A stretch of DNA of 64,000 bases from positions 182,684 through 246,683 of the forward strand of contig NZ_CP085156.1 of assembly GCF_022788695.1 (NCBI RefSeq), given 5' to 3'. The stretch is from Pseudosulfitobacter sp. DSM 107133 (GTDB taxonomy: Bacteria; Pseudomonadota; Alphaproteobacteria; Rhodobacterales; Rhodobacteraceae). Numbering within the stretch: position 1 is the first letter of the stretch; every line of letters begins with the position of its first letter. The notes below the pieces were generated by a model. That model made no database searches and was not told the origin of the DNA. It saw only the letters and a list, made by a program, of their open reading frames with translations. Position numbers and translations under genes: made by a program. This document shows positions 37,025 to 57,162 of this stretch, one piece after another.

Positions 37025-37034
37025 CCCAAAACAC

Positions 37035-38004: not shown

Positions 38005-38187
38005 TACCTTACATTCCCGTTCTAAATCAGCACACCCTTGGGTCCGTCCAGCTTGAGTGTGTGTTGTGAGGTATTTTGCGCCGACTTTGCCGAACTATTC
38101 TACCGAATGCCACCACACAGCGACATAATATGCCGCAAGCCACGCGGTCACCCACCGCTGACCAAAGGTCAACAAAACCCTTGGCGG

Positions 38188-39327: not shown

Positions 39328-41007
39328 TCACGTCCCGAACAGCCGCGCCGCCTCTTCGCTGGTATAGCGCCCCAGCCGCACATCTTCGGCGACCAGTGCC
39401 GGATCACGGTCTTTCGCAGGCCCATAGCCCCCGCCGCCGGGCGTGCGCACCCGCACCCGGTCTCCGGCTTTCAGCGCGATGTCCTGCGCCTTGGACAGAT
39501 GTTCAGGCACAAATTCCTTGCCCGATTGCGTGACCACAACGCGGTTCTTGCCGCCATCCTCGCCGCCCAGAACACCCTGAGGGCCGAAACGCCCGTGATC
39601 CATCACGAAACTGGCCCGCGCCGTGCCGCGCAGGATTTCCACCTCGTAATCCAGCCCGAAACCGCCGCGCTGCGCCCCCGCGCCGCCCGACCCGTCGTGC
39701 AGGGCATAGCGGTGGTACAGGATCGGAAACTGCTGCTCCATGATCTCGACCGGTGGGGATTTGGAAATGCCGATGGTTGAACAGCCGTTCGAAATGCCGT
39801 CACCCCCCGCATAGCCGCCGTAACCGCCGCCCGAAATCTGGTACATCACATAGCTGCGCCCCTCTTCAGGGATGTCACCCCCCAGCGCAAAGTTGCCCGA
39901 GGATCCGGCGGGCGCGGCTGTCACGAGATCCGGCAAGGGCACCACCAACGCGGCAAAAACCGCCTCGGCAATCCGCTGGCTGACCTCGGCGGCACAGCCC
40001 GACACGGGGCGCGGGTATTGCGCATCAAGGAAGGTGTCGACAGGGCGCACAATCTCCAACGGCTCGAACGCGCCCGCGCTGATCGGCACGTCGGGGAAAA
40101 TATGGCGCATCGCCAGATAGACCGAGGAATGCGTTGTCGCCAGAACCGAGTTCATCGGCCCCGCACAGGGCGCGGACGAGCCGGTGAAGTCAAAGCTCAA
40201 CCCGTCGCCATCCGCCGTGATCGCCAGCCTGATTTCCAGCGGCTCATCCACCACCCCGTCGCTGTCCACATAGGCGGTCGACCGGTACACACCGGGCGGG
40301 ATCGCCGCGATGTTCGCGCGCATCTGCTGGGCCGCGCGGGTGCGCAGCTCGGCAATGGCTGCGCGCACCGTGTCGTCGCCATAGCGGTCCAGCAACCGCA
40401 CCAGACGCGACTGCCCCACATACAATGCCGCCGCCTGCGCCTTCACATCGCCGATCCGCTGTTCCGACACGCGAATGTTGGAACAGATGATGGCGTAAAT
40501 CTCGGCGTCCATCTCGCCCTCTTTGAACAGGCGCACAGGCGGCAGCCGCAGCCCTTCCTGTTCAACCGAGGTGGCCGAGGCCGAAAAGCCCCCCGGCACC
40601 GCGCCACCTGTATCGGGCCAGTGGCCGGTGTTGGACAGCCAGCAGAAAATCTCGCCGTTCCGGTAGACGGGCATGGCAAAGCGCACATCCATCAAATGCG
40701 TGCCGCCCAGATAGGGATCGTTCACGATGTAAATGTCGCCCGGCTTGGGCTTGGCCGCTTTGCCGTCGCGGATCATCTGGATCAGGGTCGCCGTCGAAAA
40801 CTGCATGGTCCCGACAAACACCGGCAACCCTTGTGACCCCTGCGCAATCAGGCTGCCGTCAACGGCAGAATATATCCCGTCCGATCGGTCGTTGGCCTCG
40901 GCAATCACCGGCGAGAATGCGGCGCGGGAAAACGACAGGTCCATTTCGTCACAGACCTGTTGCAGGCCCGACTGGATCACTGTCAGTGTAATCGGATCAA
41001 TGCTCAT
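39328..41007 (-). CDS. hyuB: Hydantoinase B / 5-oxoprolinase B family protein (second HyuB)
   Basis: The 559-residue protein has the HyuB features: SIDPITLTVIQSGLQQVCDE at the start, the CDEMDLSFSRAAFSP segment, IVNDPYLGGTHLMD, a SNTGHWPDTGG segment and RVRTPGGGGYGPA near the end. It partners HyuA (41004) in an ATP-dependent ring-opening or carboxylating enzyme. Its ATG overlaps the hyuA stop (ATGA). It is the last gene of the minus-strand operon starting at 46616. It lacks the long C-terminal tail seen in the HyuB at 15333. Confidence 0.93.
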   Translation of the reverse strand: MSIDPITLTVIQSGLQQVCDEMDLSFSRAAFSPVIAEANDRSDGIYSAVDGSLIAQGSQGLPVFVGTMQFSTATLIQMIRDGKAAKPKPGDIYIVNDPYLGGTHLMDVRFAMPVYRNGEIFCWLSNTGHWPDTGGAVPGGFSASATSVEQEGLRLPPVRLFKEGEMDAEIYAIICSNIRVSEQRIGDVKAQAAALYVGQSRLVRLLDRYGDDTVRAAIAELRTRAAQQMRANIAAIPPGVYRSTAYVDSDGVVDEPLEIRLAITADGDGLSFDFTGSSAPCAGPMNSVLATTHSSVYLAMRHIFPDVPISAGAFEPLEIVRPVDTFLDAQYPRPVSGCAAEVSQRIAEAVFAALVVPLPDLVTAAPAGSSGNFALGGDIPEEGRSYVMYQISGGGYGGYAGGDGISNGCSTIGISKSPPVEIMEQQFPILYHRYALHDGSGGAGAQRGGFGLDYEVEILRGTARASFVMDHGRFGPQGVLGGEDGGKNRVVVTQSGKEFVPEHLSKAQDIALKAGDRVRVRTPGGGGYGPAKDRDPALVAEDVRLGRYTSEEAARLFGT

Positions 41008-43067
41008 GGCTGCTCTCCCAGGGTTACGATCAGGTTGCCGTCGGCGTCCTGCACGGCAGTGTCGCCCGGCTCCATCACCAGCGTGCAATCCATCTGTTCC
41101 ACGATCACTGGCCCTGTCAGCGTTGCGTCCGCGGGCAGGTGGTCGCGCCAATAGACCGGCGTGTCGACCCAAGCATCGAACCACACGGACCGCGTGCCTG
41201 TCTGCGCCTCGGCCAGCGTCGCGCGGCGTTCGGCGGTATCGATCAACAGCGACAGGTCCACCTCGGGGCGGCGCCCGATCACGGATGTGTTCACATTGAC
41301 CAGCGCGGGGCGGATTTCGGGCAGCGTCACCTGAAACCGCCGGAAATAGGCTTCTTCAAACAGCGCCTGCAACGCCGCGCGGGTCGGCGTGGCATCGGGC
41401 AGCGGCACCCTCAGCAAATGCGTCTGGCCGATAAACTGCATGTCCACCGAATGCATCAGGCGCAGCTCGGCAATCTCGACCCGCTCGCGGCCAATCGCGG
41501 CGGTGCCATCCTCGATCTGGCGGGCAAAGGCGGCGTGAACCTCGTCGATGTCGCAGTGATCCAGCGGGGTGTTCACCGTCTGCACAAAGTCGTGCCGCAG
41601 GTCGGCCACGATACAGCCCAGGGCGTTGGTGATACCGGGGCGCGCAGGCACCAACACGCGCGGCACGCCCAGCTCGCGGGCAATGGCGCAGGCGTGCAAC
41701 GGCCCCGCCCCGCCAAAGGCGAACAGGGCAAAATCGCGCGGGTCCTCGCCCAGTGAAATCGACACCATCCGCACCGCATCGGCCATCTTGGCCGTGGCAA
41801 TACGCAGCACCGCCGCCGCCGCCTGCACCGCATCCAGCCCCAGCGGATCACCCAGCTTGGCCGCAAAGACATCGCGGATCATGTCGATCGAGACATCCCC
41901 CGAAATCGTGTTCAGCTTGCCCGGATTCATCCGCCCGAGCAGCATGTTCGCATCCGAAATCGTCGGCTCGGTCCCGCCCTTGCCGTAACAGATCGGCCCG
42001 GGAGTCGATCCCGCGCTGTCCGGTCCCACCTGCAACAGCCCGGCCGCATTCACCCGCGCGATGGAACCGCCACCGGCCCCCACGGTGCGCACATCGACCA
42101 TCGGCACGTGGATCGGCATCGCGTATTCAATCTCGATCTCGTGGCTGACGGCAGGGTCTGCGCCACGGATCATCGCCACATCGGTGCTGGTGCCGCCCAT
42201 GTCATAGGTCAGCAGGTCGGGAATGCCCGCGCGCCGCCCGGTATAGGCCGCTGCCATCACACCCGAGGCGGGCCCCGACATCACCGTCTTGGCCGCTTCC
42301 TCGGCCACGATGCGCGCCGACACCATGCCGCCGTTGCCGTTCATCACCAGCAGATCACGGGTATAGCCCCGCTCGGCCAGCCGGTCCGCCAAGCGCTCGA
42401 CATAGCGCCGCAAGAGCGGCTGCACCGAGGCATTCACCGCCGCCGTCACCCCGCGCTCGAACTCGCGGCTTTCCGACAGCAGCGCGCTGCCCAGCGTGAT
42501 GTTGCCGTTGGGCCATTCCTCGCGCGCAATCTCGCCCGCGCGGATTTCGTGGGCGGGGTTGGCATAGGCATGCAGGAAATGGATCACCAAGGCCTCGCAA
42601 TCCTCGGCCACCAGCTTGCGCAGGGCCACGCGCAACGCGTCCTCGTCCAGCGCCAGATATTCAGAACCATCCGCAAGCGTACGTTCCGGCACCTCGAGGC
42701 GCAGATCGCGCGGGATCAGCGGGCGGAACTGCCCCGACATGCCATAGGCCTGCGGCCGGGTCCGTCGCCCCAGCTCCAGCACGTCCCGAAAGCCCATCGT
42801 GGTGATCAGCCCTGTCTTGCACAGCCGCCGCTCCAGCACGGCGTTGGTGGTGGTCGTGGTCCCATGCACGATCAGGTCCAGCATCGCCGCATCCACTCCG
42901 GCCGCGTCCAGAGCCGCCAGCACCCCATGCGCCTGATTGTCCAGCGTTGTCGGCACCTTGGCCAGTTTTACCCGCCCCGTACGGCTGTCGTAATGTACCA
43001 GATCGGTGAACGTCCCACCCACGTCGATACCGGCAAAGCTGCCGCTCAGTTCACTTGCGTCTGTCAT
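41004..43067 (-). CDS. hyuA: Hydantoinase A / 5-oxoprolinase A family protein (second HyuA)
   Basis: The 687-residue protein has FAGIDVGGTFTDLVHYD, LIVHGTTTTTNAVLERR, LTYDMGGTSTDVAMI, ICYGKGGTEPTISDAN and FAFGGAGPLHACAIAREL, the complete HyuA pattern. The start MTDASEL at 43067 is chosen because it overlaps the upstream stop by ATGA; a longer frame to 43199 is an antisense artefact. It supplies ATP-driven activation for lactam or hydantoin opening. Coupling to a molybdenum hydroxylase suggests that the substrate is a hydroxylated N-heterocycle. Confidence 0.93.
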   Translation of the reverse strand: MTDASELSGSFAGIDVGGTFTDLVHYDSRTGRVKLAKVPTTLDNQAHGVLAALDAAGVDAAMLDLIVHGTTTTTNAVLERRLCKTGLITTMGFRDVLELGRRTRPQAYGMSGQFRPLIPRDLRLEVPERTLADGSEYLALDEDALRVALRKLVAEDCEALVIHFLHAYANPAHEIRAGEIAREEWPNGNITLGSALLSESREFERGVTAAVNASVQPLLRRYVERLADRLAERGYTRDLLVMNGNGGMVSARIVAEEAAKTVMSGPASGVMAAAYTGRRAGIPDLLTYDMGGTSTDVAMIRGADPAVSHEIEIEYAMPIHVPMVDVRTVGAGGGSIARVNAAGLLQVGPDSAGSTPGPICYGKGGTEPTISDANMLLGRMNPGKLNTISGDVSIDMIRDVFAAKLGDPLGLDAVQAAAAVLRIATAKMADAVRMVSISLGEDPRDFALFAFGGAGPLHACAIARELGVPRVLVPARPGITNALGCIVADLRHDFVQTVNTPLDHCDIDEVHAAFARQIEDGTAAIGRERVEIAELRLMHSVDMQFIGQTHLLRVPLPDATPTRAALQALFEEAYFRRFQVTLPEIRPALVNVNTSVIGRRPEVDLSLLIDTAERRATLAEAQTGTRSVWFDAWVDTPVYWRDHLPADATLTGPVIVEQMDCTLVMEPGDTAVQDADGNLIVTLGEQP

Positions 43068-45790
43068 ATAGAAGCCTTGTCTTTCTGCGCGAGGATCGCG
43101 GCGCGGATGCGGTCCGGTGTCGCCGGAAGATGGTGGATGCGCGCGCCGCTGGCGTCCGCGATGGCGTTCAAAATGGCGGGGGCCGTGGGGATCAGGCAAT
43201 GCTCGCCCAGCCCCTTGGCCCCGTAGGGACCGTGTGCGTCGCCGGATTCGATGATGATCGAGGTGATGTCAGGCACGTCGCCCATCGTCGGGATCAGGTA
43301 ATCATGCAGGTTCTCGGTACGTCCGGGCAGGAATTCCTCCATCAGCGCCAGCCCGATGCCCTGTGCAATACCGCCTTCGATCTGCCCTTCGACCAGCAGC
43401 GGATTGATCGCACGGCCCACATCATGCGCGGCGACAAACCGCAACAGCTTGACCGTGCCAAGGGCCATATCGACCTCCAGCTCGACCATCTGCGCCGCCG
43501 TGCCAAAAACCGCATAGGGCGATCCCTGCCCCTTGGCGTCCATCGGCAGGGTCGGCGGATCATAGCTTTCCTGCACTTCCAGCGCATAGCCTTCGGCAGC
43601 AGGCAGTTCGATCCGGCGGCGTACCTCGCCCTCGGACAGCTCGATCGCGCCATCCACAAAGGCAATCGCGGCCCCGTCGCCCACATTGCCCAACCGCAAG
43701 ATCTGCGCCCGCAGCGCTTCACCCGCCAGCCGTGCGGCGTTGCCGGTGATAAAGGTCTGACGGCTTGCCGATGTCTTGCCCGCATCCGGCGTCAGATCGG
43801 TATCGGCGCCAACCAAAGTGACCTGCGACAGCGGCACCCCCAGCGCCTGCGCAAAAATCTGGGTGATGACGGTGTTTGATCCCTGCCCGATATCCACGGC
43901 CCCCTGATGCAGCATCAGTTCCCCGTCCGACGTGACACCCGCGCGGATGGTCGAGGGGTTCGACATCGACGTGTTGCCACAGCCATACCAGCCGCCCGCC
44001 ACGCCAACCCCGCGCTTGATCTGCGCATGGGCCGCGTTGAATGCCCTGGCCTCGGCCAACGCGCGCTCCCATTCGGGTTTCAGCGCGTCAAAGCACGCAT
44101 CAATGCCCATGCCGGTGTCAAACACCTGCCCCGTCACCGTCGCATCGCCGTTTTGCAGACAGTTCAGCCGCCGGAATGCCAGCCGGTCCATGCCCAGATC
44201 ATTGGCCAGCAGATCGAACAACTGTTCCTGCGCCACCGCTGATTGCGGCACGCCAAAGCCGCGAAACGCACCCGCCGGTGTGGTGTTGGTGTGAATGCCC
44301 ACGCTGTTCGCTTCGTAATGCGGCACGCGGTAAGGGCCGGACGCATGGATCGGCACGCGGTTCGCCACGGTCGGCCCCCAGCTGGCATACGCCCCCGTAT
44401 TGAACACACCGTCAAAGCGCGCGCCCACGATCCGCCCGTCTGCATCCGTCCCGATCTTCATCGAAATCTCGGACGGGTGGCGTTTGGTCGAACTGGCGAT
44501 GCTTTCGGCGCGGGTATAGGCCATGCGCACCGGCTGCCCCAATATCCACGCCGCCAGCGCCACATAGGGCTGCGCGGTCAGGTCCAGCTTGGACCCGAAC
44601 CCGCCGCCCACCGCAGTGGGCAGAATGCGCACCGCCGCAGGGTCCAGCCCCAGAATGCCCGCCAGCGCATCGCGGTTCATATAGGGGGCCTGCGTGCAGC
44701 ATTGCACCTCGATCCGGTCGCCCACCCTGCGGGCGCTGGCCGCTTCGGGTTCGATATAGCCGTGTTCGATAAATCCTGTTGAGAAGTCGCCCGCAACCAC
44801 ATGCGCGGCCTGCGCCAAACCCGCTTCGGCATCGCCGCGCGCCACCAGACCGCGACACATCACGTTGTCCGCGCGGTCGGGATGAAGCAGCGCCGCCGCG
44901 TTGGCCCCCGCCGGTGTCAGTTGCGCCGCGCGTTCGTCCCATTCCACCGGAAAGGCGCCCATGGCGTCCAGAACCCCGGCGCGGCCAACCACAGCAGCCA
45001 CCGCCTCGCCTTTGAAGCGCGCCTCGCCTTCGGCAAAAACCGGCTGGTCGATAAACCCCGGAATGACGCCAAACAGGTTCTCCCCCGGCACGTCGCTGGC
45101 GGTCAGGACCAAATCCAGCCCGTTTGCGTCCCGAAACGCCTCCAGATCGCCAAAGCGGAACCCAGCGCGGTGAAACGGCGACCGGATCACCCGCACCGTC
45201 AGCGAATCCGCCGGGGCGACATCATCGCCAAACCGCTCGCTGCCCGACACCTTGGGCCAGCCGTCCAGCCGCGCCACCCGCGCGCCGACGCCGCCTTCGG
45301 TCAATGTCTCGGTGGTCGCACCGGCATCCAGCACCGCCGCGATGATCTTGCGATAGCCGGTGCAACGGCACAGCACCCCGCCCAAGGCATCGGCCACGCG
45401 TTCCTCGGTCAGCGCCGCACCCGAACGCAACAACGCCACCGCCGACACCATCATGCCCGGCGTGCAGATCCCGCATTGCGCCGCCTGATGCCGCTGGAAC
45501 GCCTGCGCCAAACGCGCAGCATCGGCGTCACCGGCAACCAGCCCCGCCTGCGTTTCAACCTGCCGGCCCTGCGCCTGACCGGCTGCGGTGATGCAGGCAC
45601 AGACCGGCGCGCCGTCCAGCAGCACGGTACAGGCCCCGCAATCGCCCGCGTTGCAGCCCACCTTGACATCCAGTGCCCCCGCGCTGTCGCGCAAAACCTC
45701 GGACATCCGCGCCGTGGGCGAAGCAGACAGGGTGATTTCAGCGCCGTTCAGGGTCAGGGCAATCTGCCCCTTGGGTTCGTCAAGCGACAT
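43064..45790 (-). CDS. Molybdenum hydroxylase with fused [2Fe-2S] and molybdopterin domains (xanthine dehydrogenase family)
   Basis: The 908-residue protein joins a small iron-sulfur subunit (residues about 1-160: CNAGDCGACTVLLDG, QCGICTPGMMV and LCRCTGYRKI) to a large molybdopterin subunit. Large-subunit motifs are AVGGGFGSKLDL, AGAFRGFGVPQ, VDIGQGSNTVITQIF, and the catalytic Glu in GAKGLGEHCLIPT. The FAD domain is separate (45780). Such enzymes hydroxylate N-heteroaromatic rings next to nitrogen using water. The fusion of small and large subunits is less usual. It overlaps the FAD gene by 11 nt and hyuA by 4 nt, so hydroxylation and ring-opening enzymes are co-translated. Confidence 0.92.
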   Translation of the reverse strand: MSLDEPKGQIALTLNGAEITLSASPTARMSEVLRDSAGALDVKVGCNAGDCGACTVLLDGAPVCACITAAGQAQGRQVETQAGLVAGDADAARLAQAFQRHQAAQCGICTPGMMVSAVALLRSGAALTEERVADALGGVLCRCTGYRKIIAAVLDAGATTETLTEGGVGARVARLDGWPKVSGSERFGDDVAPADSLTVRVIRSPFHRAGFRFGDLEAFRDANGLDLVLTASDVPGENLFGVIPGFIDQPVFAEGEARFKGEAVAAVVGRAGVLDAMGAFPVEWDERAAQLTPAGANAAALLHPDRADNVMCRGLVARGDAEAGLAQAAHVVAGDFSTGFIEHGYIEPEAASARRVGDRIEVQCCTQAPYMNRDALAGILGLDPAAVRILPTAVGGGFGSKLDLTAQPYVALAAWILGQPVRMAYTRAESIASSTKRHPSEISMKIGTDADGRIVGARFDGVFNTGAYASWGPTVANRVPIHASGPYRVPHYEANSVGIHTNTTPAGAFRGFGVPQSAVAQEQLFDLLANDLGMDRLAFRRLNCLQNGDATVTGQVFDTGMGIDACFDALKPEWERALAEARAFNAAHAQIKRGVGVAGGWYGCGNTSMSNPSTIRAGVTSDGELMLHQGAVDIGQGSNTVITQIFAQALGVPLSQVTLVGADTDLTPDAGKTSASRQTFITGNAARLAGEALRAQILRLGNVGDGAAIAFVDGAIELSEGEVRRRIELPAAEGYALEVQESYDPPTLPMDAKGQGSPYAVFGTAAQMVELEVDMALGTVKLLRFVAAHDVGRAINPLLVEGQIEGGIAQGIGLALMEEFLPGRTENLHDYLIPTMGDVPDITSIIIESGDAHGPYGAKGLGEHCLIPTAPAILNAIADASGARIHHLPATPDRIRAAILAQKDKASI

Positions 45791-46616
45791 CGGTTTTCTC
45801 CACTGCATCCAACAACGTGCGCCGCACCAGCGTGCGCACCGCATCCATGCGAAAGACCGCGCTGGCCCGCACATCATCAATCGGGGTCAACGCGTCCAGC
45901 CGCGCCTCTCCGACGATCCCCCCGACATCTCCCAGCGCGGCCCCGACCAGCGCCGTTTCCAGATCAACCAGCCGCCGCGCCACCGGCGAACATGACCCGA
46001 CAGCGATACGCGCCCGCACGATCCGCCCGCCGTCAGCGTGTACAACAGCGCTGACCATCGCGATCGAAATCACCAGATACCGCCGCGCGCCCAGCTTGCG
46101 AAACGCGCCACAGCCCGGCGCATCATGCACATAGATCGCCGTCATCAGCTCGCCCGCCGCCAGATCGACCTTGCGAACGCCCTGAATGAACGCGCTCAGC
46201 GGCACCCGCCGCGCGCCGCTTGGCCCTGTCAGCTCTACCTCGGCATCCAGCGCCATCAGCGCCGGAACCCCGTCCGCCGCAGGCGAGGCATTGCACAGGT
46301 TCCCCGCAACCGTTCCGGTGTTCTGGATCTGCACCGACCCGACCTCGCGCGCGGCCAGCTTGAGCCCGTCGAACAATGCAGGCAGGTCGGCACGCACCAC
46401 ATCTGTCCAAGTCGTCGCCGCCCCGATCCGCCAGCCCTCATCAACCCGCGCGATCCCGCGCAGCCCCGCCACCGCCGAAACATCAATCATCCGCGCAGGT
46501 GGCGGCGCGGCGCGCAGCCCCGGATAGACATCCGTGCCCCCCGCCAGAACCACCCCGCCGCCTTCGGCCAGCAGGGCAAGGGCCGCGTCCAGTGTCTCGG
46601 GTCGATGAAGCGTCAT
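45780..46616 (-). CDS. FAD-binding subunit of molybdenum hydroxylase (CoxM type)
   Basis: The 278-residue protein has the CoxM/XDH FAD motif VVLAGGTDVYPGLRA (residues about 21-35), followed by IRV-type segments and NTGTVAGNLCNASPAAD, the second FAD signature. It is the electron-transfer subunit of the molybdenum hydroxylase encoded next. It heads the minus-strand operon that runs through the Mo subunit, hyuA and hyuB. A palindrome (46653-46673) and a TTGACA (46705-46710) lie upstream. Confidence 0.92.
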   Translation of the reverse strand: MTLHRPETLDAALALLAEGGGVVLAGGTDVYPGLRAAPPPARMIDVSAVAGLRGIARVDEGWRIGAATTWTDVVRADLPALFDGLKLAAREVGSVQIQNTGTVAGNLCNASPAADGVPALMALDAEVELTGPSGARRVPLSAFIQGVRKVDLAAGELMTAIYVHDAPGCGAFRKLGARRYLVISIAMVSAVVHADGGRIVRARIAVGSCSPVARRLVDLETALVGAALGDVGGIVGEARLDALTPIDDVRASAVFRMDAVRTLVRRTLLDAVEKTDVA

Positions 46617-46652
46617 GTGGTGCCTCTTTCACTGCCCGGACCAGCCCCGGGC

Positions 46653-46710
46653 TTCATTTGTGTGCAAACGATACAGGCACACCGTAGAAACTTGCATGAA
46701 AAGTTGTCAA
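46653..46710 (-). promoter_or_regulatory. Promoter and candidate operator of the molybdenum hydroxylase operon
   Basis: On the minus strand TTGACA (plus coordinates 46705-46710) is followed at 18 bp by TACGGT as a weak -10. Downstream lies a site at 46653-46673 that reads TTCATTTGTGTGCAAACGAT on the plus strand and resembles the sites at 46754 and 47701. A palindrome just past the start point suggests repression. Confidence 0.45.
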
Positions 46711-46753
46711 TCGTCCTGATCGCTTTCGGGCCTTTATCGGCCAAAAAACTTTT

Positions 46754-46773
46754 TTCGTTTGTGTACGAACGAA
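46754..46773. promoter_or_regulatory. Candidate operator upstream of the ferredoxin reductase gene
   Basis: TTCGTTTGTGTACGAACGAA is an almost perfect palindrome 48 bp before the start at 46821. It shares TTCGTTTGT and ACGAA elements with the sites at 46653 and 47701. It may bind a GntR-type dimer. The regulator gene is not in the window. Confidence 0.5.
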
Positions 46774-46820
46774 TTTTGGCGCAGCATCTGCTCTGAAATT
46801 ATGCAGAATGGAGCATTGAG

Positions 46821-47648: not shown

Positions 47649-47700
47649 TCCATGACCGAAATCCGCGCAAAACTGTTGACACACAAACGGGTGTCGTGCG

Positions 47701-47716
47701 TTCGTATACAAACGAA
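47701..47716. promoter_or_regulatory. Candidate operator TTCGTATACAAACGAA
   Basis: A 16-bp near-palindrome lies in the 119-nt gap between fpr and the reductase-like gene, just after TTGACA (47677-47682). It matches the arms of the sites at 46653 and 46754. It implies a separate, co-regulated promoter for the genes starting at 47768. Confidence 0.5.
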
Positions 47717-47767
47717 TTGCACATCCGACCCGATCCGCCCGATTGCCAAGCCCCCGGAGCCCGCACC

Positions 47768-49282: not shown

Positions 49283-50169
49283 GCTGGCAGGAATCCCCAA
49301 CGGCGCATCTGTCGCCCGACGGCAGCCTGCGGCTGATCCACGGGCCGATTGACCTGATCGTCACGGCCCACGGCCCCGCACCGGCGGTGCGCGCCGCCTA
49401 TCTGCGCGCCTCGGATGCTTTCAAACCCGTGCTGAGCAATCTGGTATCGGAACTGTCGCGCTTGCGCCAATGCGACGGACCTGCCCCCACCGGCGGGATT
49501 GCCCGCAAGATGCATCAGGCCACGCGCCCCTTTGCGCCCACGTTCATCACCCCGATGGCCGCCGTGGCCGGCGCCGTGGCAGATCACATCCTGACCGCCC
49601 TGCTGGCCCAGAACCACAGCCTGACCCGCGCCCATGTCAACAACGGCGGCGACATCGCCCTGTGGACCGCGAACCAGCCCCTGCGCCTTGCCATTTGCGA
49701 GGACCCCACCACCGCCGCCCCCGGCGCACAGGCCGAAATCGGGCCGCGCGACGGCATCGGCGGCGTGGCCACATCGGGCTGGCGGGGCCGGTCGCATTCG
49801 CTGGGCATTGCCGATGCGGTGACCGTGCTGGCCGCCACTGCGGCGCAGGCCGACGCTGCCGCCACGCTGATCGCCAACGCCATCGACCTGCCCGACCACC
49901 CCGCCATCACCCGCGCCCCCGCCAACAGCCTGTCACCCGACAGCGATCTGGGCGCACGGCGGGTCACCACCGATGTGGCCCCGCTGTCGGCCCATGACCT
50001 GCGCACCGCTCTTGACCGTGGCGTGTTGCGGGCCAGAACCTATGCCGCGCGTGGCCTGATTGTCGGCGCATGTCTTGCCTGTCAGGGTGAAAGACGCATG
50101 ATCGGCACAACCATTTCCGCCCGCCCCCTGCGGGACCAGTCACAGCCCAAGGACCTTATCCATGCCTGA
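49279..50169 (+). CDS. UPF0280 family protein (ApbE-like fold)
   Basis: The 296-residue protein belongs to the UPF0280 family. Visible features are FITPMAAVAGAVADHILTAL, a VNNGGDIALW motif and GIGGVATSGWRGRSHSLGIA plus DAVTVLAATAAQADAAATL. The NGGD and GIATSG-like motifs are shared with ApbE flavin transferases, so a flavin-linked maturation role is plausible. The start at 49279 overlaps the previous stop by ATGA, and the gene overlaps the next by 8 nt. Its tight link to the reductase-like gene suggests it acts on that protein. That is inference. Confidence 0.82.
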   Translation: MSWQESPTAHLSPDGSLRLIHGPIDLIVTAHGPAPAVRAAYLRASDAFKPVLSNLVSELSRLRQCDGPAPTGGIARKMHQATRPFAPTFITPMAAVAGAVADHILTALLAQNHSLTRAHVNNGGDIALWTANQPLRLAICEDPTTAAPGAQAEIGPRDGIGGVATSGWRGRSHSLGIADAVTVLAATAAQADAAATLIANAIDLPDHPAITRAPANSLSPDSDLGARRVTTDVAPLSAHDLRTALDRGVLRARTYAARGLIVGACLACQGERRMIGTTISARPLRDQSQPKDLIHA

Positions 50170-50746
50170 ACCCGTCATCCGCAAAACGGCGCTCCTGACC
50201 GAGACCATCTATCACGAGGGCGGCCCCGCCCCCGCAAAACCCCAGCGCCGCGCCGCCTGCATGACCGTCATCGCCAACCCCTTTGCCGGACGCTATGTCG
50301 AAGATATTCAGGGCTTTATGGAAGACCTGAAGCCTTTGGGCGCAGAAATGGCACAACAACTGATCGACGCCCTTGGCGGTGATCCCGCTGCGATCCAGGG
50401 CTATGGCAAGGGCGCCATCGTCGGCACCAACGGCGAACTGGAACACGGCGCGCTGTGGCATGTGCCCGGCGGCTATGCCATGCGCGACACCATTGCCGAC
50501 AGCATGGCCATCGTGCCCTCGACCAAGAAAATCGGCAGCCCCGGCACCCGGCTTGATGTGCCGATCACCCACAGCAACGCTTCCTATGTGCGCAGCCATT
50601 TCGACGCGATGGAGGTCGGCCTGCCCGACGGTCCCAAGGCCGACGAAATCCTGTTGGTGCTGGTGATGAGCACGGGGCCGCGCATTCACGCCCGCGTCGG
50701 CGGTCTGGCCGCCGAGGACGTCAAGGGCGAGGACGGCTTGCGGTGA
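50162..50746 (+). CDS. DUF1185 'amino acid synthesis' family protein, copy 1
   Basis: The 194-residue protein belongs to DUF1185. Conserved blocks include MTVIANPFAGRYVEDIQGFM, VQGYGKGAI-type QGYGKGAIVGTNGELEHGAL, GSPGTRLDVPITHSNASYVR and SHFDAMEVGLPD. Its biochemical role is not established. It overlaps UPF0280 by 8 nt and its paralogue by 4 nt (GTGA). Position between a ring reductase and a Rieske oxygenase suggests a catabolic enzyme or accessory for a heterocycle. Confidence 0.82.
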   Translation: MPEPVIRKTALLTETIYHEGGPAPAKPQRRAACMTVIANPFAGRYVEDIQGFMEDLKPLGAEMAQQLIDALGGDPAAIQGYGKGAIVGTNGELEHGALWHVPGGYAMRDTIADSMAIVPSTKKIGSPGTRLDVPITHSNASYVRSHFDAMEVGLPDGPKADEILLVLVMSTGPRIHARVGGLAAEDVKGEDGLR

Positions 50747-51321
50747 ACCTGCGCCGGATCATAACGCTGGTCGAAGAGACACGCACCGAAATGGGCCAAC
50801 CCGTTTCGCCCCCCGCACGGCGCGCGCTGGCGGCGGCGGTGATCGTGAACCCCTATGCGGGCCGCTATGTCGCGGATCTGGCAGAGCTGTTCGAAACAGG
50901 TGCCGAACTGGGCACCCTGCTGGGAGCCGAGGCGCTGACCGCACTGGGCTGTGCGGCAGGCGATGTTCAGGGATACGGCAAAGCCGCCCTTGTCGGCGAA
51001 GACGGCGAACTGGAACATGCCGCGGCCCTTTTGCACCCGACACTGGGCGCGCCGCTGCGTGACGTGCTGGGTGGTGGCAAGGCGCTGGTGCCCTCGTCCA
51101 AGGCGATGGGCGCTCCGGGCACCGTGATCGACGTGCCGCTGGGCCACAAGGACGCCGCCTATGTGCGCAGCCACTTTGACGGGATGCGGCTGCAATTGCC
51201 TGACGCCCCGCGTCGTGGTGAAATCGTCGTGGCCGTGGCGCTGCAACTGGGCGGGCGGCCCAATCCGCGCGTTGGAGGGCTACGGCACTCAGAAGTCACC
51301 GGCGCAGACGGGCTGCGCTAG
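50743..51321 (+). CDS. DUF1185 'amino acid synthesis' family protein, copy 2
   Basis: The 192-residue protein is a paralogue of the preceding one. It shares VIVNPYAGRYVADLAELFET, VQGYGKAALVGEDGELEHAA, GAPGTVIDVPLGHKDAAYVR and a DGLR C-terminus. The GTG start overlaps the copy 1 stop (GTGA). The pair may form a hetero-oligomer with diverged halves, as both copies keep the same conserved blocks but differ at the N-terminus and mid region. Function unknown. Confidence 0.82.
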   Translation: MNLRRIITLVEETRTEMGQPVSPPARRALAAAVIVNPYAGRYVADLAELFETGAELGTLLGAEALTALGCAAGDVQGYGKAALVGEDGELEHAAALLHPTLGAPLRDVLGGGKALVPSSKAMGAPGTVIDVPLGHKDAAYVRSHFDGMRLQLPDAPRRGEIVVAVALQLGGRPNPRVGGLRHSEVTGADGLR

Positions 51322-51342
51322 AACACACCCAAGGAGGTCAAC

Positions 51343-52413
51343 ATGTCGAATTTCATCCGCAACGCCTGGTACGTCGCTGCATGGTCGACCGAGATCGACG
51401 ACACCCTGCGCCGCTTTACCATCCTTGGCGATCACGTCGTCATGTACCGCAAATCCGACGGCGGTGTCGTGGCACTCGAAGACCGCTGCCCCCACCGTCT
51501 GCTGCCCCTGTCCAAGGGCAAGCGCGTGGGCGACAACGTGCAATGCGGCTATCACGGGCTGACCTTCGACTGTTCCGGTGCCTGCGTGCGGGTGCCGGGC
51601 CAGACCAACCTGCCCAAATCCGCCTATGTCGAGGCCTTCCCGACCGAAGAACGCCACGGCATCGTCTGGATCTGGATGGGCGACCCGGCCCGCGCCGACA
51701 CCTCGAAAGTGTTCGACATGCCCGAATTCACCGATCCCGCCTGGAAGGTCCACCACGGCGATGCGCTGCACCTGAAATCGAACTATCTGAACGTGGCCGA
51801 AAACCTGGTTGATCCGGCCCACGTCAGCTTTGTCCACCCCACCACGCTGGGCAATGCCGCATCCGAAAACGTCCCCGTGCATGTGCAGACCGAAGGCGAG
51901 GCAATCCTCGCATGGCGCTGGATTCGCGACGCCGAACCCATCGGCTTTTTCAAGGCATTCGGCGGCTTCACCGGCCACGTCGACCGCTGGCACTATTATT
52001 ACCTTTACACCCCCTGCACCGCCGTGATCGACTTTGGCTCGGCCCCCACCAAGGACGCCATTGCCGAGGACGAGCGCGACAAGGGGGTGCGCATCTTTGC
52101 CCTGCACTTTATCACACCGGTGACAGAAACCTATTCGATCGACCGCTGGATGCACATCCGCAACACCGCGCTTGACGATCCCGATGCCGAAGAGACCATG
52201 GACAAAATGTTCCGCGTCGCCTTTCAGGAAGACAAGGCAATCCTTGAAGCCGTGCAAGAGGAAGAAAACCGCCCCGCCAAACGCCGCCCGATCCGCATTG
52301 CCATCGACAAGGGGCCGCTTGTGTATCGCAAGCGCATCAATGACCTGATCGAACTCGAACGCACCGAAGATCTGGCAAGCGACCCCTCGCCTGCCTTTGT
52401 CTACCACGACTAA
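51343..52413 (+). CDS. Rieske [2Fe-2S] aromatic ring/N- or O-demethylating oxygenase (VanA-like)
   Basis: The 356-residue protein has a Rieske cluster motif, Cys49-x-His51 and Cys68-x2-His71 (CPHRLLPLSKGKRVGDNVQC, then GYHG). The mononuclear iron site is NVAENLVDPAHVSFVH. Size and C-terminal domain fit the vanillate demethylase-type monooxygenases, many of which remove N- or O-methyl groups. AAGGAGGT gives a strong RBS. Electrons probably come from the Fpr encoded at 46821, because no VanB-type reductase is present. It follows the DUF1185 genes in the same operon. Confidence 0.92.
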   Translation: MSNFIRNAWYVAAWSTEIDDTLRRFTILGDHVVMYRKSDGGVVALEDRCPHRLLPLSKGKRVGDNVQCGYHGLTFDCSGACVRVPGQTNLPKSAYVEAFPTEERHGIVWIWMGDPARADTSKVFDMPEFTDPAWKVHHGDALHLKSNYLNVAENLVDPAHVSFVHPTTLGNAASENVPVHVQTEGEAILAWRWIRDAEPIGFFKAFGGFTGHVDRWHYYYLYTPCTAVIDFGSAPTKDAIAEDERDKGVRIFALHFITPVTETYSIDRWMHIRNTALDDPDAEETMDKMFRVAFQEDKAILEAVQEEENRPAKRRPIRIAIDKGPLVYRKRINDLIELERTEDLASDPSPAFVYHD

Positions 52414-52495
52414 CCGGCACCAGACCGGATATAACGGCAGCAACGACTGCCACCAACAGACCGGCAGCACTCTGCCACCAATAGGAGAGACACCG

Positions 52496-53716
52496 ATGAC
52501 CCTCACGCGACGCACCCTGCTCGCCGCCGCCACCGCCCTGACGCTGGCCCCCGGCTTTATGTCTGGGGCCGCACTGGCCCAGGACACGATCAAGATCGGC
52601 GAGATCAACCATTACAAACGTCTGGCCGCCTTTGCCGAGCCCTATAAAAAGGGGATCGAACTGGGCCTCAAGGAAATCAACGACGCAGGCGGTGTGCTGG
52701 GCAAACCGCTCGAATTCATCTACCGCGACGATCAGGGCGACCCCGCCGAAGCGGTCAAGATCGCAGAAGAGCTGATGACCCGCGACGGCGCGGTGATGCT
52801 GACCGGTTCGATCCTGTCGCACGTCGGTCTGGCGCTGTCGTCCTTTGCTGCCGAAAAGGGGTATCTCTACCTTGCCGCCGAGCCGCTGGCCGACAGCCTC
52901 GTGTGGGGCTCGGGCAACCCCAACACCTTCCGCCTGCGCGCCTCGACATGGATTCAGGCCGCAATGCTGGCCGAAGAAGCCGCCAAGACCGATGCGATCC
53001 GCTATGCCACCATCGCGCCCAACTATGCCTATGGTCAGGACGCCGTCGCCGCCTTCAAGGAGAACCTGAAACGGCTCAAGCCCGAGGTTGAATTCGTTGC
53101 CGAACAATGGCCCGCCCTGTTCAAGATCGACGCCGGCGCCGAGGTGCAGGCCATCGAGCGCGCCAAACCCGACGCGATCTATAACGTAACCTTCGGCACC
53201 GACCTTGCCAAATTCGTGCGCGAAGGCGGCGACCGTGGCCTGTTCGACGGCCGCCCCGTCTATGGCCTGCTGTCCGGTGAGCCCGAGTATCTGGAACCGC
53301 TGGGCGATGAAGCACCCGAAGGCTGGTTCGTCACCGGCTATCCCTGGTACGGCTTTGAAGACGGCACGCCGGAAAAAGCCTTTGTCGACGCCTATATCGC
53401 CGAAACCGGTGAAACGCCCAAAATCGGCTCGCTGGTCGGTTACCTCGACGTGATTTCCATCGCCGCTGCCATCGAAAAGGCCGGAGCCACCGACACCGCC
53501 TCGCTGATTGCCGCCTTCGAAGGGCTGGAAATCCCCGACACGCCCATCGGCACGCTCAGCTACCGCGAAATCGACAACCAGTCGAACATGGGTGCCTATG
53601 TCGGCACCATCGCGATGCAGGACGGCAAGGGTGTGATGGTTGACTGGACCTATAAATCGCCCGACGGCTACATGCCTTCGGACGAAGAAATCAAGGCGAT
53701 GCGCCCGGCCGAATAA
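52496..53716 (+). CDS. Branched-chain amino acid-type ABC transporter substrate-binding protein
   Basis: The 406-residue Peripla_BP_6 protein has a signal peptide with an Arg pair (MTLTRRTLLAAATALTLAPG, cleavage likely after ALA near residue 28). Typical segments are IKIGEINHYKRLAAFAEPYK, GLKEINDAGGVLGKPLEFI and LVGYLDVISIAAAIEKAGA. It binds an amino-acid-like or carboxylate ligand in the periplasm. AGGAGAG precedes the ATG. It probably recognises the heterocyclic growth substrate of the cluster. Confidence 0.92.
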   Translation: MTLTRRTLLAAATALTLAPGFMSGAALAQDTIKIGEINHYKRLAAFAEPYKKGIELGLKEINDAGGVLGKPLEFIYRDDQGDPAEAVKIAEELMTRDGAVMLTGSILSHVGLALSSFAAEKGYLYLAAEPLADSLVWGSGNPNTFRLRASTWIQAAMLAEEAAKTDAIRYATIAPNYAYGQDAVAAFKENLKRLKPEVEFVAEQWPALFKIDAGAEVQAIERAKPDAIYNVTFGTDLAKFVREGGDRGLFDGRPVYGLLSGEPEYLEPLGDEAPEGWFVTGYPWYGFEDGTPEKAFVDAYIAETGETPKIGSLVGYLDVISIAAAIEKAGATDTASLIAAFEGLEIPDTPIGTLSYREIDNQSNMGAYVGTIAMQDGKGVMVDWTYKSPDGYMPSDEEIKAMRPAE

Positions 53717-53729
53717 GCCAGTCGCGACA

Positions 53730-53756
53730 GGCAGGTGGGTGCAACGCCCGCCTGCC
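53730..53756 (+). terminator. Stem-loop between binding protein and permease genes
   Basis: The RNA forms a 12-bp stem (GGCAGGUGGGUG with CGCCCGCCUGCC, two G-U pairs) around a 3-nt loop in the 99-nt gap after the binding-protein stop. It has no T-tract. It likely stabilises the upstream message or attenuates the permease genes. Confidence 0.55.
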
Positions 53757-53815
53757 AAACCCCTTCCTGACATGACACACCGCTTGGCGGTGCCCGCCCA
53801 AGGATACTCTTCCGC

Positions 53816-55675
53816 ATGGCCTTTTTCTTTGCCCAGCTTCTGACCGGCCTCGCCAATGCCTCGTCGCTGTTCCTCGTGGCCTCGGGCCTGTCGCTGATAT
53901 TCGGCGTTACCCGCATCGTGAACTTTGCCCACGGGTCGTTCTATATGCTGGGGGCCTTTGTCGGGGTCACCCTGATGCAGGTGCTGCCCGGCACTATCGG
54001 CTTTTGGGGGGCGATCCTGCTGACCGGCCTTGTGGTAGGGGCCATCGGGGCCTTTGTCGAAATGGTGGTGCTGCGCCCGATCTACCGCGCCCCCGAACTG
54101 TTCCAGCTGGTTGCCACCTTTGGCGTGATCCTTGTGATTCAGGACCTTGCCCTGATGATCTGGGGGGCCGAAGACCGCATGGGCCCGCGTGCCCCCGGCC
54201 TGCGCGGCGTCTGGCGCATCTTTGGCGAACCGGTGCCCAAATACGATCTGGTGATCATCGCCATCACCCCGCTGATCCTCTTCGCCCTGTGGTATCTCAT
54301 CACCAAGACACGGGTGGGCGTGCTGGTGCGCGCCGCCACCCAGGACCGCGAGATGGTCGGCGCGCTTGGCGTCAATCAGGCGTGGCTGTTCACCGGCGTC
54401 TTTGCCCTTGGCTCGGCGCTGGCCGGCTGGGGCGGCGCGCTGCAACTGCCCAAGGGCGGGGCCGATCTGTTGATGGATTTCAACATCATCGGCGCGGCCT
54501 TTGTGGTTGTCGTCATCGGCGGCATGGGGTCCCTGCCCGGTGCCTTTATCGCCGCTGTGCTGATCTCGGTGCTGAACGTCTTTGGCGTCACCTACCTGCC
54601 GCAATCCACGCTGGTGCTGATGTTTGTCGTCATGGCCGTTGTCCTGATCATCCGCCCCTATGGCCTGCTGGGCCGCGAGGAAGTCGCGGGGGAACACGGA
54701 CAGGTCGGCGCACCCGAAACCCCGATCCGCCCCTATGGCACCACCGCTCAGATGCTGGTCGCCGCCCTGCTGCTGGCACTGGCCGCCCTGCCCCTCTTTG
54801 CCGACCGCTTCCTGTTGATCCTGCTGATCGACATGGTGGTCTTTGCGCTGTTTGCCGCCTCGCTGCACTTTATCCTTGGCACCGGCGGCATGGTCAGCTT
54901 TGGCCACGCGGCGTTCTTTGGCGGCGGGGCCTATGCGGCGGCGCTGCTGGTCTATCACCTCGACACCCCGATGGAGATCGCCTTCCTGTTTGCCCCCCTT
55001 GTCGCCGGTCTGCTGGCGCTTGGGATCGGCTGGTTCTGTATCCGCCTCAGCGGGGTCTACTTTGCCATGCTTACGCTGGCCTTTTCGCAACTTGTCTGGT
55101 CGATGGCCTATCAATGGCGCGACCTGACGCGCGGCGATGACGGGCTGGTCAACATCTGGCCGGCAAGCTGGCTGGGCGACACCATCCCGTTCTATTACTT
55201 CACGCTGGCCTTTGGAGTCGGCGGCATCCTTGTGCTGCGCCACATCATCCATTCGCCGTTCGGCTATGCCCTGCGCGCCGGCCGCGACAGCCCCCGTCAG
55301 GCCGAGGCGATGGGGATCAACGTCAAACGGGTGCAGCATGTGGCCTTTGGTCTTGCCGGCGTCATGGCGGGGCTTGCGGGCGGCATCTTCGTCTTCTCCA
55401 AAGGCTCGGTGTTCCCGACCGAACTGGAAATCGGTGCCTCTTTCGATGCGCTCATCGTGGTCTTCCTTGGCGGGGTCAAAACCCTCGCCGGTGGCGTCGT
55501 CGGCGCGGGTTTCATGACGCTGGTCGAAGACTGGCTGACCCGTCTTGAATACTGGCGTCTGGTGCTGGGCCTTGTCATCATTGCGGTGGTCATCATCGCG
55601 CCCGAAGGCATCGTCGGCACCCTGCGCAGCACATGGAACAAATTCCGCGGCACCAACGAAGAGGCCGTCAAATGA
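53816..55675 (+). CDS. Fused LivH-LivM branched-chain amino acid-type ABC transporter permease
   Basis: The 619-residue protein joins a LivH domain (residues about 1-290: LFLVASGLSLIFGVTRIVNF, then VVVVIGGMGSLPGAFIAA) to a LivM domain. The LivM part covers about 310-610 (MVSFGHAAFFGGGAYAAALL, ALRAGRDSPRQAEAMGINVK). About 18 or more membrane segments are visible. LivH and LivM are usually separate genes; here a hydrophilic linker around residue 290-310 joins them. It overlaps livG by ATGA. Confidence 0.93.
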   Translation: MAFFFAQLLTGLANASSLFLVASGLSLIFGVTRIVNFAHGSFYMLGAFVGVTLMQVLPGTIGFWGAILLTGLVVGAIGAFVEMVVLRPIYRAPELFQLVATFGVILVIQDLALMIWGAEDRMGPRAPGLRGVWRIFGEPVPKYDLVIIAITPLILFALWYLITKTRVGVLVRAATQDREMVGALGVNQAWLFTGVFALGSALAGWGGALQLPKGGADLLMDFNIIGAAFVVVVIGGMGSLPGAFIAAVLISVLNVFGVTYLPQSTLVLMFVVMAVVLIIRPYGLLGREEVAGEHGQVGAPETPIRPYGTTAQMLVAALLLALAALPLFADRFLLILLIDMVVFALFAASLHFILGTGGMVSFGHAAFFGGGAYAAALLVYHLDTPMEIAFLFAPLVAGLLALGIGWFCIRLSGVYFAMLTLAFSQLVWSMAYQWRDLTRGDDGLVNIWPASWLGDTIPFYYFTLAFGVGGILVLRHIIHSPFGYALRAGRDSPRQAEAMGINVKRVQHVAFGLAGVMAGLAGGIFVFSKGSVFPTELEIGASFDALIVVFLGGVKTLAGGVVGAGFMTLVEDWLTRLEYWRLVLGLVIIAVVIIAPEGIVGTLRSTWNKFRGTNEEAVK

Positions 55676-56442
55676 CCGAGATCCTGCGCGTCGAAAACCT
55701 GAAGAAAAGCTATGACGGCTTTCTGGCCGTCAATGGCGTGTCCTTTGCGGTGCAACAGGGCGAGCTCAAGGCCCTGATCGGTCCCAACGGGGCCGGCAAA
55801 TCCACCTGTTTCAACATGCTGATGGGCCAGCTGAAACCCACCGCCGGTCAGGTGTTTCTGGACGGTGAAAACGTCACCGGCCAGCGCCCCCGCGACATCT
55901 GGCGCAAGGGGGTTGGCCGCACATTCCAGATCACCGGCACCTACCAGTCGATGAGCGTGATCGAAAACGTGCAGATGGCGCTGATCAGCCACCACCGCAA
56001 ACTGTTCTCGATGCTGCCCCGCGCGTGGAAGCTGTACCGCGAAGAGGCCTTCGAGTTTCTGCAAACCGTGTCGATGGCCGATCAGGCCGACCGGCCCTGC
56101 TCGGTTCTGGCCTACGGCGACCTCAAGCGGCTGGAACTGGCGATTGCCCTGACCCACCGCCCCCGCCTGTTGCTGATGGACGAACCCACCGCCGGCATGG
56201 CCCCTTCGGCGCGGATCGAACTGATGCAGCTGGTGGCCGATATCGTCCGCGATCAGGGCGTGTCCGTCCTGTTCACCGAACACGACATGGACGTGGTCTT
56301 TGCCCACGCGCATCACATCATGGTGCTGAACCGGGGCGAACTGATTGCCGACGGTAGCGCCGCCGAAGTCCGTGAAAACCCGCAGGTCCAGGAGGTCTAT
56401 CTGGGCGGCGGCACACTCTTCAAGGAGGCACAGGATGCTTAA
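55672..56442 (+). CDS. livG: ABC transporter ATP-binding protein LivG
   Basis: The 256-residue ATPase has Walker A IGPNGAGKST, a divergent signature LAYGDLKRLELA in place of LSYG-Q-R-LE, Walker B LLLMDEPTAGM and an H-loop in VLFTEHDMDVVF. It energises uptake together with LivF. It overlaps the fused permease gene (ATGA) and the livF start by 8 nt. Confidence 0.94.
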   Translation: MTEILRVENLKKSYDGFLAVNGVSFAVQQGELKALIGPNGAGKSTCFNMLMGQLKPTAGQVFLDGENVTGQRPRDIWRKGVGRTFQITGTYQSMSVIENVQMALISHHRKLFSMLPRAWKLYREEAFEFLQTVSMADQADRPCSVLAYGDLKRLELAIALTHRPRLLLMDEPTAGMAPSARIELMQLVADIVRDQGVSVLFTEHDMDVVFAHAHHIMVLNRGELIADGSAAEVRENPQVQEVYLGGGTLFKEAQDA

Positions 56443-57136
56443 CGTCGACGGCATTCACAGCTATTACGGCAAGGCCCATATCCTGAACGGCCTGTCCTTC
56501 CAGATCGGGCGCGGCGAGGTCGTGGCGTTGCTGGGCCGCAACGGTGCCGGCAAATCCACCACCATGAAATCGGTCATGCAACTGGTGCGCCCCCGCACCG
56601 GCCGCGTGATGTTTCAGGATGCCGACCTTGTCGGCGCACCTGCCTTTCGCGTCGCGAAATCCGGCATCGGATACGTCCCCGAAGACCGCCGCATCTTCAC
56701 CGACCTGACGGTGATGGAAAACCTCGAAGTGGGCCGCCAACCACGCCGCGACGGCGCACCAACGTGGACGGTGGACCAGCTGTTCGACATCTTCCCCAAC
56801 CTCGCCGAACGCCGCGGCAACCGTGGCAAGCACATGTCGGGCGGCGAACAGCAAATGCTGACCATTGCGCGCACGCTGATGGGCAACCCGTTGCTGTTGC
56901 TGCTCGATGAACCCTCCGAAGGCATCGCGCCGGTGATCGTCGAAGAGATGGCCAACACCATCCTCAAGCTGAAAGCCGAAGGGCTGACGGTAATGATTTC
57001 CGAACAGAACCTGCACTTTGCCCGCGCCGTGGCCGACCGTGCCATCATCATCGAAGGCGGCGAAAAGAAGTTTGACGGCAGCTTTGCCGAGCTTGAAGCC
57101 CGCCCCGAAATCCGCGACGCCTACCTGTCGGTCTGA
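56435..57136 (+). CDS. livF: ABC transporter ATP-binding protein LivF
   Basis: The 233-residue ATPase has Walker A LLGRNGAGKSTT, signature HMSGGEQQMLTIAR, Walker B LLLLDEPSEGIAP and the H-loop position occupied by Gln (MISEQNLHFA), as is typical for LivF. The start at 56435 follows CAAGGAGGC. It is the last gene of the transporter set and is followed by a hairpin at 57140. Confidence 0.94.
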   Translation: MLNVDGIHSYYGKAHILNGLSFQIGRGEVVALLGRNGAGKSTTMKSVMQLVRPRTGRVMFQDADLVGAPAFRVAKSGIGYVPEDRRIFTDLTVMENLEVGRQPRRDGAPTWTVDQLFDIFPNLAERRGNRGKHMSGGEQQMLTIARTLMGNPLLLLLDEPSEGIAPVIVEEMANTILKLKAEGLTVMISEQNLHFARAVADRAIIIEGGEKKFDGSFAELEARPEIRDAYLSV

Positions 57137-57139
57137 TTC

Positions 57140-57162
57140 GGCGGACAACTCCGCCTTGTTCT
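57140..57162 (+). terminator. Probable terminator after livF
   Basis: GGCGGA (57140-57145) and TCCGCC (57150-57155) form a 6-bp stem with a CAAC loop, followed by TTGTTCT. It is four bases beyond the livF stop. Confidence 0.6.

Follow-up and report, generated by a model that had tools for sequence, protein, structure and literature searches.

The stretch of DNA analysed here (the window; 64,000 nucleotides of contig NZ_CP085156.1 of Pseudosulfitobacter sp. DSM 107133) contains two divergent operons, at 39328-46616 on the minus strand and 46821-57136 on the plus strand, which encode a molybdenum (Mo) hydroxylase, the hydantoinase/oxoprolinase-type pair HyuAB, a homologue of 6-hydroxynicotinate reductase (HNR), a UPF0280 protein, two DUF1185 proteins, a ferredoxin reductase (Fpr), a Rieske oxygenase (ROX) and a Liv-type importer. 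We conclude with good confidence that the aerobic reductive nicotinate pathway is encoded here in a self-contained variant form, located on plasmids in some relatives, in which HyuAB would replace the enamidase. This replacement is our main new result: comparison of genomes shows the cluster to share a module and an operator motif with enamidase-bearing nicotinate clusters, and HyuAB to stand in for the enamidase as the putative ring opener.

The comparison was based on 149 genomes of the family and 230 genomes of the class (one genome per species in each), and on a locus set of 101 sequences (the window, 20 stretches of family genomes and 80 named loci), in which some genomes occur twice (e.g. 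L033 and L055, L042 and L100) and many sequences are short, its counts being neither independent nor complete. The thresholds for the enamidase (ENA, E≤1e-60) and for the HyuB orthologue (E≤1e-200) were fixed before the results and kept for the class sample, while the ≥60% identity cut used in the class sample and the identity cuts used in the locus set were chosen after them; tblastn matches covering less than 35-40% of the query length were discarded. The ENA query is a 391-residue amidohydrolase of many HNR loci, whose sole PDB match below 1e-10 is 2VUN, 'ENAMIDASE' (354 bits over nearly the full length).

HNR is present in 68 of the 149 family genomes, ENA in 30 and the HyuB orthologue in 35. 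Among the 68 HNR-bearing genomes 29 have ENA and 35 have HyuB, none has both and four have neither (Fisher p 3e-15). All 35 HyuB genomes carry HNR and lack an enamidase at E≤1e-60, no genome of the family sample has HyuB without HNR, and ENA was found without HNR only in G048 (43% identical). The genome of the window itself has no enamidase match at E≤1e-60 and has HyuAB instead of this component of the Azorhizobium/Bradyrhizobium pathway. The same exclusion is seen in the class sample, where HNR occurs in 34 of 230 genomes and, at ≥60% identity, ENA accompanies it in 12, HyuB in 21, both in none and neither in one (G552, 68% complete; p 2e-8), as well as in the locus set, where 13 sequences have HyuA (≥60%), 41 have ENA (≥45%) and none has the two together. 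The distance between HyuB and HNR is at most 40 kb in 20 of the 35 family genomes. On plasmid pLA6_008, genes annotated nicA-nicB, hnr and nicR lie together with HyuAB, whose annotation there is acetophenone carboxylase subunits; the three genes after hnr occupy the place of UPF0280 and the two DUF1185 genes (by DNA match to the window), and no Rieske gene is annotated in the 25 kb around nicAB-HyuAB-hnr.

The regulatory signals point in the same direction. Three palindromes with the consensus TTCGTTYGTRTRCRAACGAA are located in the cluster, two between the divergent operons and one before HNR. The 15-base form of this operator has four matches in the window (0.36 expected), all at the three sites, and in the 5.2 Mb genome the motif is confined to this cluster, bar one extra site with two mismatches. 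The motif was built from the window, sought by eye in 16 relatives and then counted in the locus set (at most 4 mismatches of 20), which gave 118 sites in 62 of the 101 sequences, compared with 3 for the reversed control; 116 of the 118 precede one of the query genes by no more than 400 bp, most often HNR, MoFAD (the FAD subunit of the Mo hydroxylase), NicA, Fpr, ENA or MarR. The same motif was recognized by eye in two Bradyrhizobium loci (L104 and L108), and is a feature in common with the nicotinate pathway of that type. For openers lying apart from HNR the motif was loosened to at most 5 mismatches, yielding 18 motif and 2 reversed-control sites in 29 stretches. When HyuAB is on another contig or more than 40 kb from HNR, 7 of 14 stretches have a site at most 110 bp before HyuA, and 7 of the 12 with ENA apart from HNR have one no more than about 190 bp away; one of the reversed-control sites is near an ENA start and none is near HyuA. 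We read this distribution as placing both ring openers in one regulon. A MarR gene of the kind found in the window is present in 62 of the 101 sequences, and its product is presumably the regulator of the cluster, with predicted binding to these sites.

On an HNR tree of 36 of the 68 HNR-bearing family genomes (those for which an HNR stretch was included) the opener label changes only 4 times, compared with a mean of 10.3 for shuffled labels. Such clustering would also be expected if HyuAB and ENA had different jobs and excluded each other only through shared genome descent. We consider this highly improbable, as all four changes are forced by well-supported branches, the exclusion is repeated in the class sample, and the operator motif precedes HyuA in 7 of the 14 stretches that carry HyuAB at a distance from HNR.

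Several observations do weigh against a strict exchange of HyuAB for the enamidase within one regulon. Four of the 68 HNR genomes have neither opener; in G014 the HNR gene has five internal stops, G030 has a fragmented UPF0280 and G147 is 73% complete, but G029 (97% complete) is a plain exception. In the class sample at the fixed thresholds G589 has both openers (its ENA 39% identical), HyuB occurs without an HNR match in 8 genomes (5 at 55-58% identity and 3 at ≥63%, including G164 with a split HNR), and ENA occurs without HNR in 3, one of them at 71%. Few of the 118 operator sites are near HyuA (4), LivSBP (3) or ROX (2), and the operator is absent from 7 of the 14 apart-lying HyuAB stretches and from two in which HyuAB is 21 and 38 kb from HNR. 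Both domains A and B of the hydantoinase/oxoprolinase superfamily are present in HyuAB (Pfam), but the scores with the NCBIfam caprolactamase CapAB models (486.3 and 294.6 bits) are under the cut-off of 1000, and the HyuAB substrate therefore remains putative. Decayed or split HNR genes were observed in two genomes (G014:C28 and G164:C1), of which G164 retains the HyuB orthologue.

HNR itself has no Pfam or NCBIfam match at E≤0.001, and its name rests on close proteins annotated as 6-hydroxynicotinate reductase (85%, 96.6% and 93.8% identity). Eight Cys are invariant across 97 aligned HNR (proteins with a stop or X were excluded from alignments, leaving 97 HNR, 90 UPF0280 and 16 ROX). At least 594 stretches of the genome collection contain it, the best 80 being mostly from Alphaproteobacteria with some from Granulosicoccus and Acidobacteria, and it is 69-72% identical to the HNR of named Bradyrhizobium loci, so that the 6-hydroxynicotinate reductase of that pathway has its counterpart in the window. 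According to PMC3511419, the HNR of strain SG-6C is 42% identical to that of Eubacterium barkeri, a reductive route via tetrahydro-6-oxonicotinate operates in aerobic Azorhizobium and a Bradyrhizobiaceae strain, the nicotinate cluster of the latter also has an ABC transporter and two conserved proteins of unknown function, and a glutarate route is cited for Azorhizobium. In the Bradyrhizobium loci that we fetched, the genes for UPF0280, DUF1185 and a Liv importer come after HNR, and a NicAB-type hydroxylase is nearby, as are, in most stretches, an enamidase and Fpr; over the whole locus set UPF0280 is present in 98 sequences and DUF1185 in 90. The Mo hydroxylase of the window is of a subfamily other than that of the Azorhizobium/Bradyrhizobium pathway: at ≥50% identity, 75 of the 101 sequences have the window type, 20 the NicB type, 6 neither and none both. 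As HNR, UPF0280 and DUF1185 are shared, while the types of hydroxylase and opener are swapped rather than combined, the cluster is probably a variant, with parts exchanged, of the aerobic reductive nicotinate pathway (hydroxylase, HNR, enamidase) of Azorhizobium and Bradyrhizobium. A glutaryl-CoA dehydrogenase gene adjoining HNR in L061 and aldehyde:ferredoxin oxidoreductase genes beside HNR clusters in L058, L060, L061 and L111 (alpha- and gammaproteobacterial lineages; Pfam run on the L060 copy) would fit the glutarate route cited in PMC3511419. A preliminary description of this DNA had proposed catabolism of an N-heterocyclic carboxylate by import, Mo-hydroxylation, ring reduction and ATP-type lactam opening, which we judge right on functions assigned by comparison. 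Its remark that the gene mix is unlike textbook nicotinate pathways was too strong, given the aerobic route described in PMC3511419 and the presence of UPF0280, DUF1185 and the operator motif in Bradyrhizobium loci.

The features of the cluster are as follows.

39328-41007, minus strand: HyuB, subunit of the hydantoinase B/oxoprolinase type, proposed to make up half of an ATP-dependent tetrahydro-6-oxonicotinate lactamase (PF02538, 518 bits).
41004-43067, minus strand: HyuA, ATP-binding hydantoinase A/oxoprolinase-type subunit (PF05378, PF01968, PF19278).
43064-45790, minus strand: MoLS, XDH-type Mo hydroxylase whose Mo subunit is fused to [2Fe-2S] domains; proposed pyridine-carboxylate 6-hydroxylase (Fer2, Fer2_2, MoCoBD_1/2).
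45780-46616, minus strand: MoFAD, FAD subunit of the Mo hydroxylase (FAD_binding_5, CO_deh_flav_C).
46653-46671, plus strand: proposed operator 1, divergent promoter (palindrome).
46754-46772, plus strand: proposed operator 2, divergent promoter (palindrome).
46821-47648, plus strand: Fpr-type ferredoxin--NADP reductase, proposed electron source for HNR (NF008178, 142.7 bits, under the cut-off of 390).
47697-47715, plus strand: proposed operator 3, before HNR (palindrome).
47768-49282, plus strand: HNR, 6-hydroxynicotinate reductase homologue (close annotated proteins; start codon uncertain, the annotated Sagittula gene beginning 72 bases later).
49279-50169, plus strand: UPF0280, ApbE-like; proposed flavin transferase for HNR (NCBIfam NF003322, above cut-off).
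50162-50746, plus strand: DUF1185 protein a (PF06684).
50743-51321, plus strand: DUF1185 protein b, relative of the solved structure 2QTP (PF06684).
51343-52413, plus strand: ROX, Rieske oxygenase of VanA/DdmC type; proposed demethylase for the entry step (PF00355, PF19112 (VanA_C); DdmC 162.6 bits).
52496-53716, plus strand: LivSBP, substrate-binding protein of the importer.
53816-55675, plus strand: LivHM, fused permeases (matches to UrtB/LivH and UrtC/LivM models, both under cut-offs).
55672-56442, plus strand: LivG ATPase.
56435-57136, plus strand: LivF ATPase.
59621-60067, plus strand: MarR-type regulator, presumably of the cluster (PF01047).

All genes of the preliminary description are open frames at the places it gave, with families that match Pfam, NCBIfam or close annotated proteins, and both permeases of the Liv/Urt-type ABC transporter are in a single gene. 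The search for a conserved gene order in relatives, which it had suggested, revealed an end-to-end DNA alignment, far beyond chance, of a 17.8 kb block (39335-57140) with a plasmid of Sagittula stellata E-37 (89.3% identity), a plasmid of Pseudosulfitobacter pseudonitzschiae SMR1 (84.7%) and a contig of Actibacterium ureilyticum (80.1%), so that its borders are correct to within a few bases. Its gene set was incomplete, as a second conserved DNA block (59608-60078) corresponds to the MarR gene. In the three relatives (loci L051, L190 and L191) this gene is directly 3' of LivF, and the RTX-like gene that separates the two in the window (57534-59378, plus strand, 614 residues; by eye) is not present there. 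The RTX-like gene is thus an extra of the window, and the conserved unit is 39335-57140 plus the MarR gene 59621-60067. The Sagittula plasmid is typed conjugative and that of P. pseudonitzschiae mobilizable.

In the DNA comparison with the relatives the Zn-alcohol dehydrogenase gene at 38188-39225 lies outside the conserved block. It is part of a region (27460-39225) that by eye holds a peptide-type binding protein, a class III aminotransferase, a hydroxyacid dehydrogenase, an M20 peptidase, an FAD oxidoreductase, acetyltransferases and this dehydrogenase (the last scanned with Pfam), and is perhaps another catabolic island. A second HyuAB pair at 15651-19338 (minus strand) is 30% and 36% identical to the studied pair; LivG-like ATPase matches lie some 5 kb from it (24013-25479). 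In S. stellata, beyond a transposase gene and outside the conserved block (L190:904-3842), a PrpF-domain protein, a methylisocitrate lyase and an FAH-family hydrolase are annotated in the flank of the cluster, a combination that brings to mind methylitaconate isomerase and dimethylmalate lyase, enzymes of anaerobic nicotinate degradation.

The entry step is the least certain part of the pathway. Twelve of the 149 family genomes have ROX (E≤1e-110) and each of them also has HNR (HyuB in 4, ENA in 7, neither opener in 1); 11 of these 12 are among the 13 family genomes with the closest importer subtype (LivSBP ≥71% identical). As ROX accompanies either opener, it would form with this importer an optional front end to both versions of the pathway. 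Among solved structures, those most similar to ROX are dicamba O-demethylase DdmC, to which it aligns over residues 1-339 of 356, and the Rieske protein 7QWT. The 16 aligned ROX retain the residues that we take to be the Rieske ligands and the His-His-Asp pattern. They also have an invariant Asp at the position of a DdmC Asn that presumably contacts the carboxylate of the substrate, a change that might, as a weak hint, suit a cationic substrate.

Trigonelline (N-methylnicotinate), a marine osmolyte, is in our estimation the likeliest entry substrate, at somewhat under even chances, followed by other substituted nicotinates; we prefer it because everything downstream is shared with nicotinate clusters. 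The preliminary description had suggested an N-methylated substrate, trigonelline or homarine among the candidates; the N-methyl group stands as a possibility, and homarine is less likely than trigonelline, the shared downstream module being the nicotinate one. Degradation of homarine (N-methylpicolinate) would be consistent with the joint occurrence of ROX and the closest importer subtype, with the absence of both from the fetched Bradyrhizobium loci, and with homarine being a common marine metabolite. On the other hand, HNR, UPF0280, DUF1185, the operator motif and MarR are all common to nicotinate clusters, which makes this reading improbable. Work on homarine catabolism exists; among the matches listed from the CC-licensed PMC literature no title concerned homarine-breakdown genes, nor HyuAB, UPF0280 or ROX in nicotinate breakdown.

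Alternatively, the N-methyl group could be kept until ring opening: trigonelline would undergo hydroxylation and reduction with the methyl still attached, HyuAB would open the N-methyl lactam with release of methylamine, and ROX would have another role. The second PDB match of HyuB is in fact named N-methylhydantoinase (7HK5), and ROX was not found in 84 of the 101 sequences, many of them short. However, HyuAB also occurs with a NicB-type hydroxylase (in L033 and L055, probably one genome twice, and on pLA6_008) and ROX with either opener; as HyuAB thus does not track ROX, we find this scheme rather unlikely. N-demethylation of trigonelline by ROX is still our best guess for the entry and the weakest step, suggested by co-occurrence only. 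Fpr more likely supplies electrons to HNR than to the oxygenase, as 20 of the 24 locus-set sequences with Fpr have no Rieske gene and 13 of the 17 Rieske loci have no Fpr in the stretch compared.

UPF0280 (so named in the annotation of its Sagittula counterpart) is present in 66 of the 149 family genomes, all HNR-bearing; in the two HNR genomes without it, HNR is at a contig edge (G132) or partial (G008). The single sequence scores 15.7 bits with Pfam ApbE (PF02424), under the gathering score of 25.6, while hhalign matched UPF0280 to a profile of 14 ApbE at 95.6% (E 1e-8) over 95 columns that include the NGGD, ATSG and ADA..T motifs (eight unrelated control profiles, at most 0.6%). The HNR of E. 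barkeri reportedly has a covalent flavin (Alhapel 2006). Counting against a flavin transferase, no attachment residue for the flavin was found among 97 aligned HNR, where T230 is T in only 85. We consider the chances about evenly balanced that UPF0280 is a private flavin transferase of HNR. The DUF1185 relative 2QTP is SPO0826. Roles of DUF1185 as ring opener or as RidA-like enamine deaminase were considered from its chorismate-mutase-like fold alone (PMC2954203, section 3.3) and dropped, ring opening being better assigned to ENA/HyuAB.

In the resulting scheme, the Liv importer would take up a pyridine-3-carboxylate derivative, most likely trigonelline, ROX might remove the methyl group to give nicotinate, and MoFAD/MoLS would convert this to 6-hydroxynicotinate. 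HNR, presumably fed by NADPH via Fpr and ferredoxin and carrying a flavin attached by UPF0280, would reduce the ring to 1,4,5,6-tetrahydro-6-oxonicotinate, and HyuAB with ATP would open the lactam instead of the enamidase, which performs its hydrolysis without ATP. The opened product would hydrolyse to 2-formylglutarate and ammonia, and proceed to glutarate and glutaryl-CoA, with MarR predicted to repress both divergent operons via the three palindromes. We infer the enzyme chemistry, regulator binding, inducer, entry substrate and UPF0280 role from sequence comparison. That all of it holds together, as a complete roseobacter trigonelline-to-glutarate pathway with ROX as a trigonelline N-demethylase, HyuAB as an ATP-dependent lactamase swapped with enamidase at least 4 times and UPF0280 as private HNR flavin transferase, is a tentative and on balance doubtful proposition; to our knowledge, none of these three roles has been assigned before. 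The analysis offers a testable function for a whole clade of 'hydantoinase/oxoprolinase' genes and for UPF0280, and reveals a nicotinate-type ring-reducing module in nearly half of the family sample. If the Rieske step is true, it would also name genes for the fate of trigonelline that are traceable in ocean metagenomes.

Among known systems, trigonelline degradation in Acinetobacter is similar in its possible substrate and reportedly involves ring cleavage by a flavin monooxygenase (tgn genes). ROX shares the Rieske and VanA_C domains with the DdmC/VanA demethylases and differs by the invariant Asp aligned to the DdmC Asn. HyuAB has both subunits and domains of the ATP-dependent lactamases (caprolactamase, N-methylhydantoinase, 5-oxoprolinase), from which it is set apart by its sub-cut-off caprolactamase scores and by the constant company of HNR in the family sample. 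Nicotinate fermentation by E. barkeri (Alhapel 2006, cited in PMC3511419) has the hydroxylase, 6-hydroxynicotinate reductase and tetrahydro-6-oxonicotinate in common with the window but, unlike it, is anaerobic and uses an enamidase (2VUN); its later steps reportedly go via a B12 mutase. The closest likeness is to the cluster of Azorhizobium caulinodans, Bradyrhizobium and SG-6C (PMC3511419), with HNR, UPF0280, DUF1185, a Liv-type importer, MarR (in most Bradyrhizobium loci) and the operator motif in common. Where Bradyrhizobium-type clusters have a NicAB-type hydroxylase and, in most stretches, an enamidase, the window has an XDH-type hydroxylase, HyuAB, a Rieske enzyme and another importer subtype.

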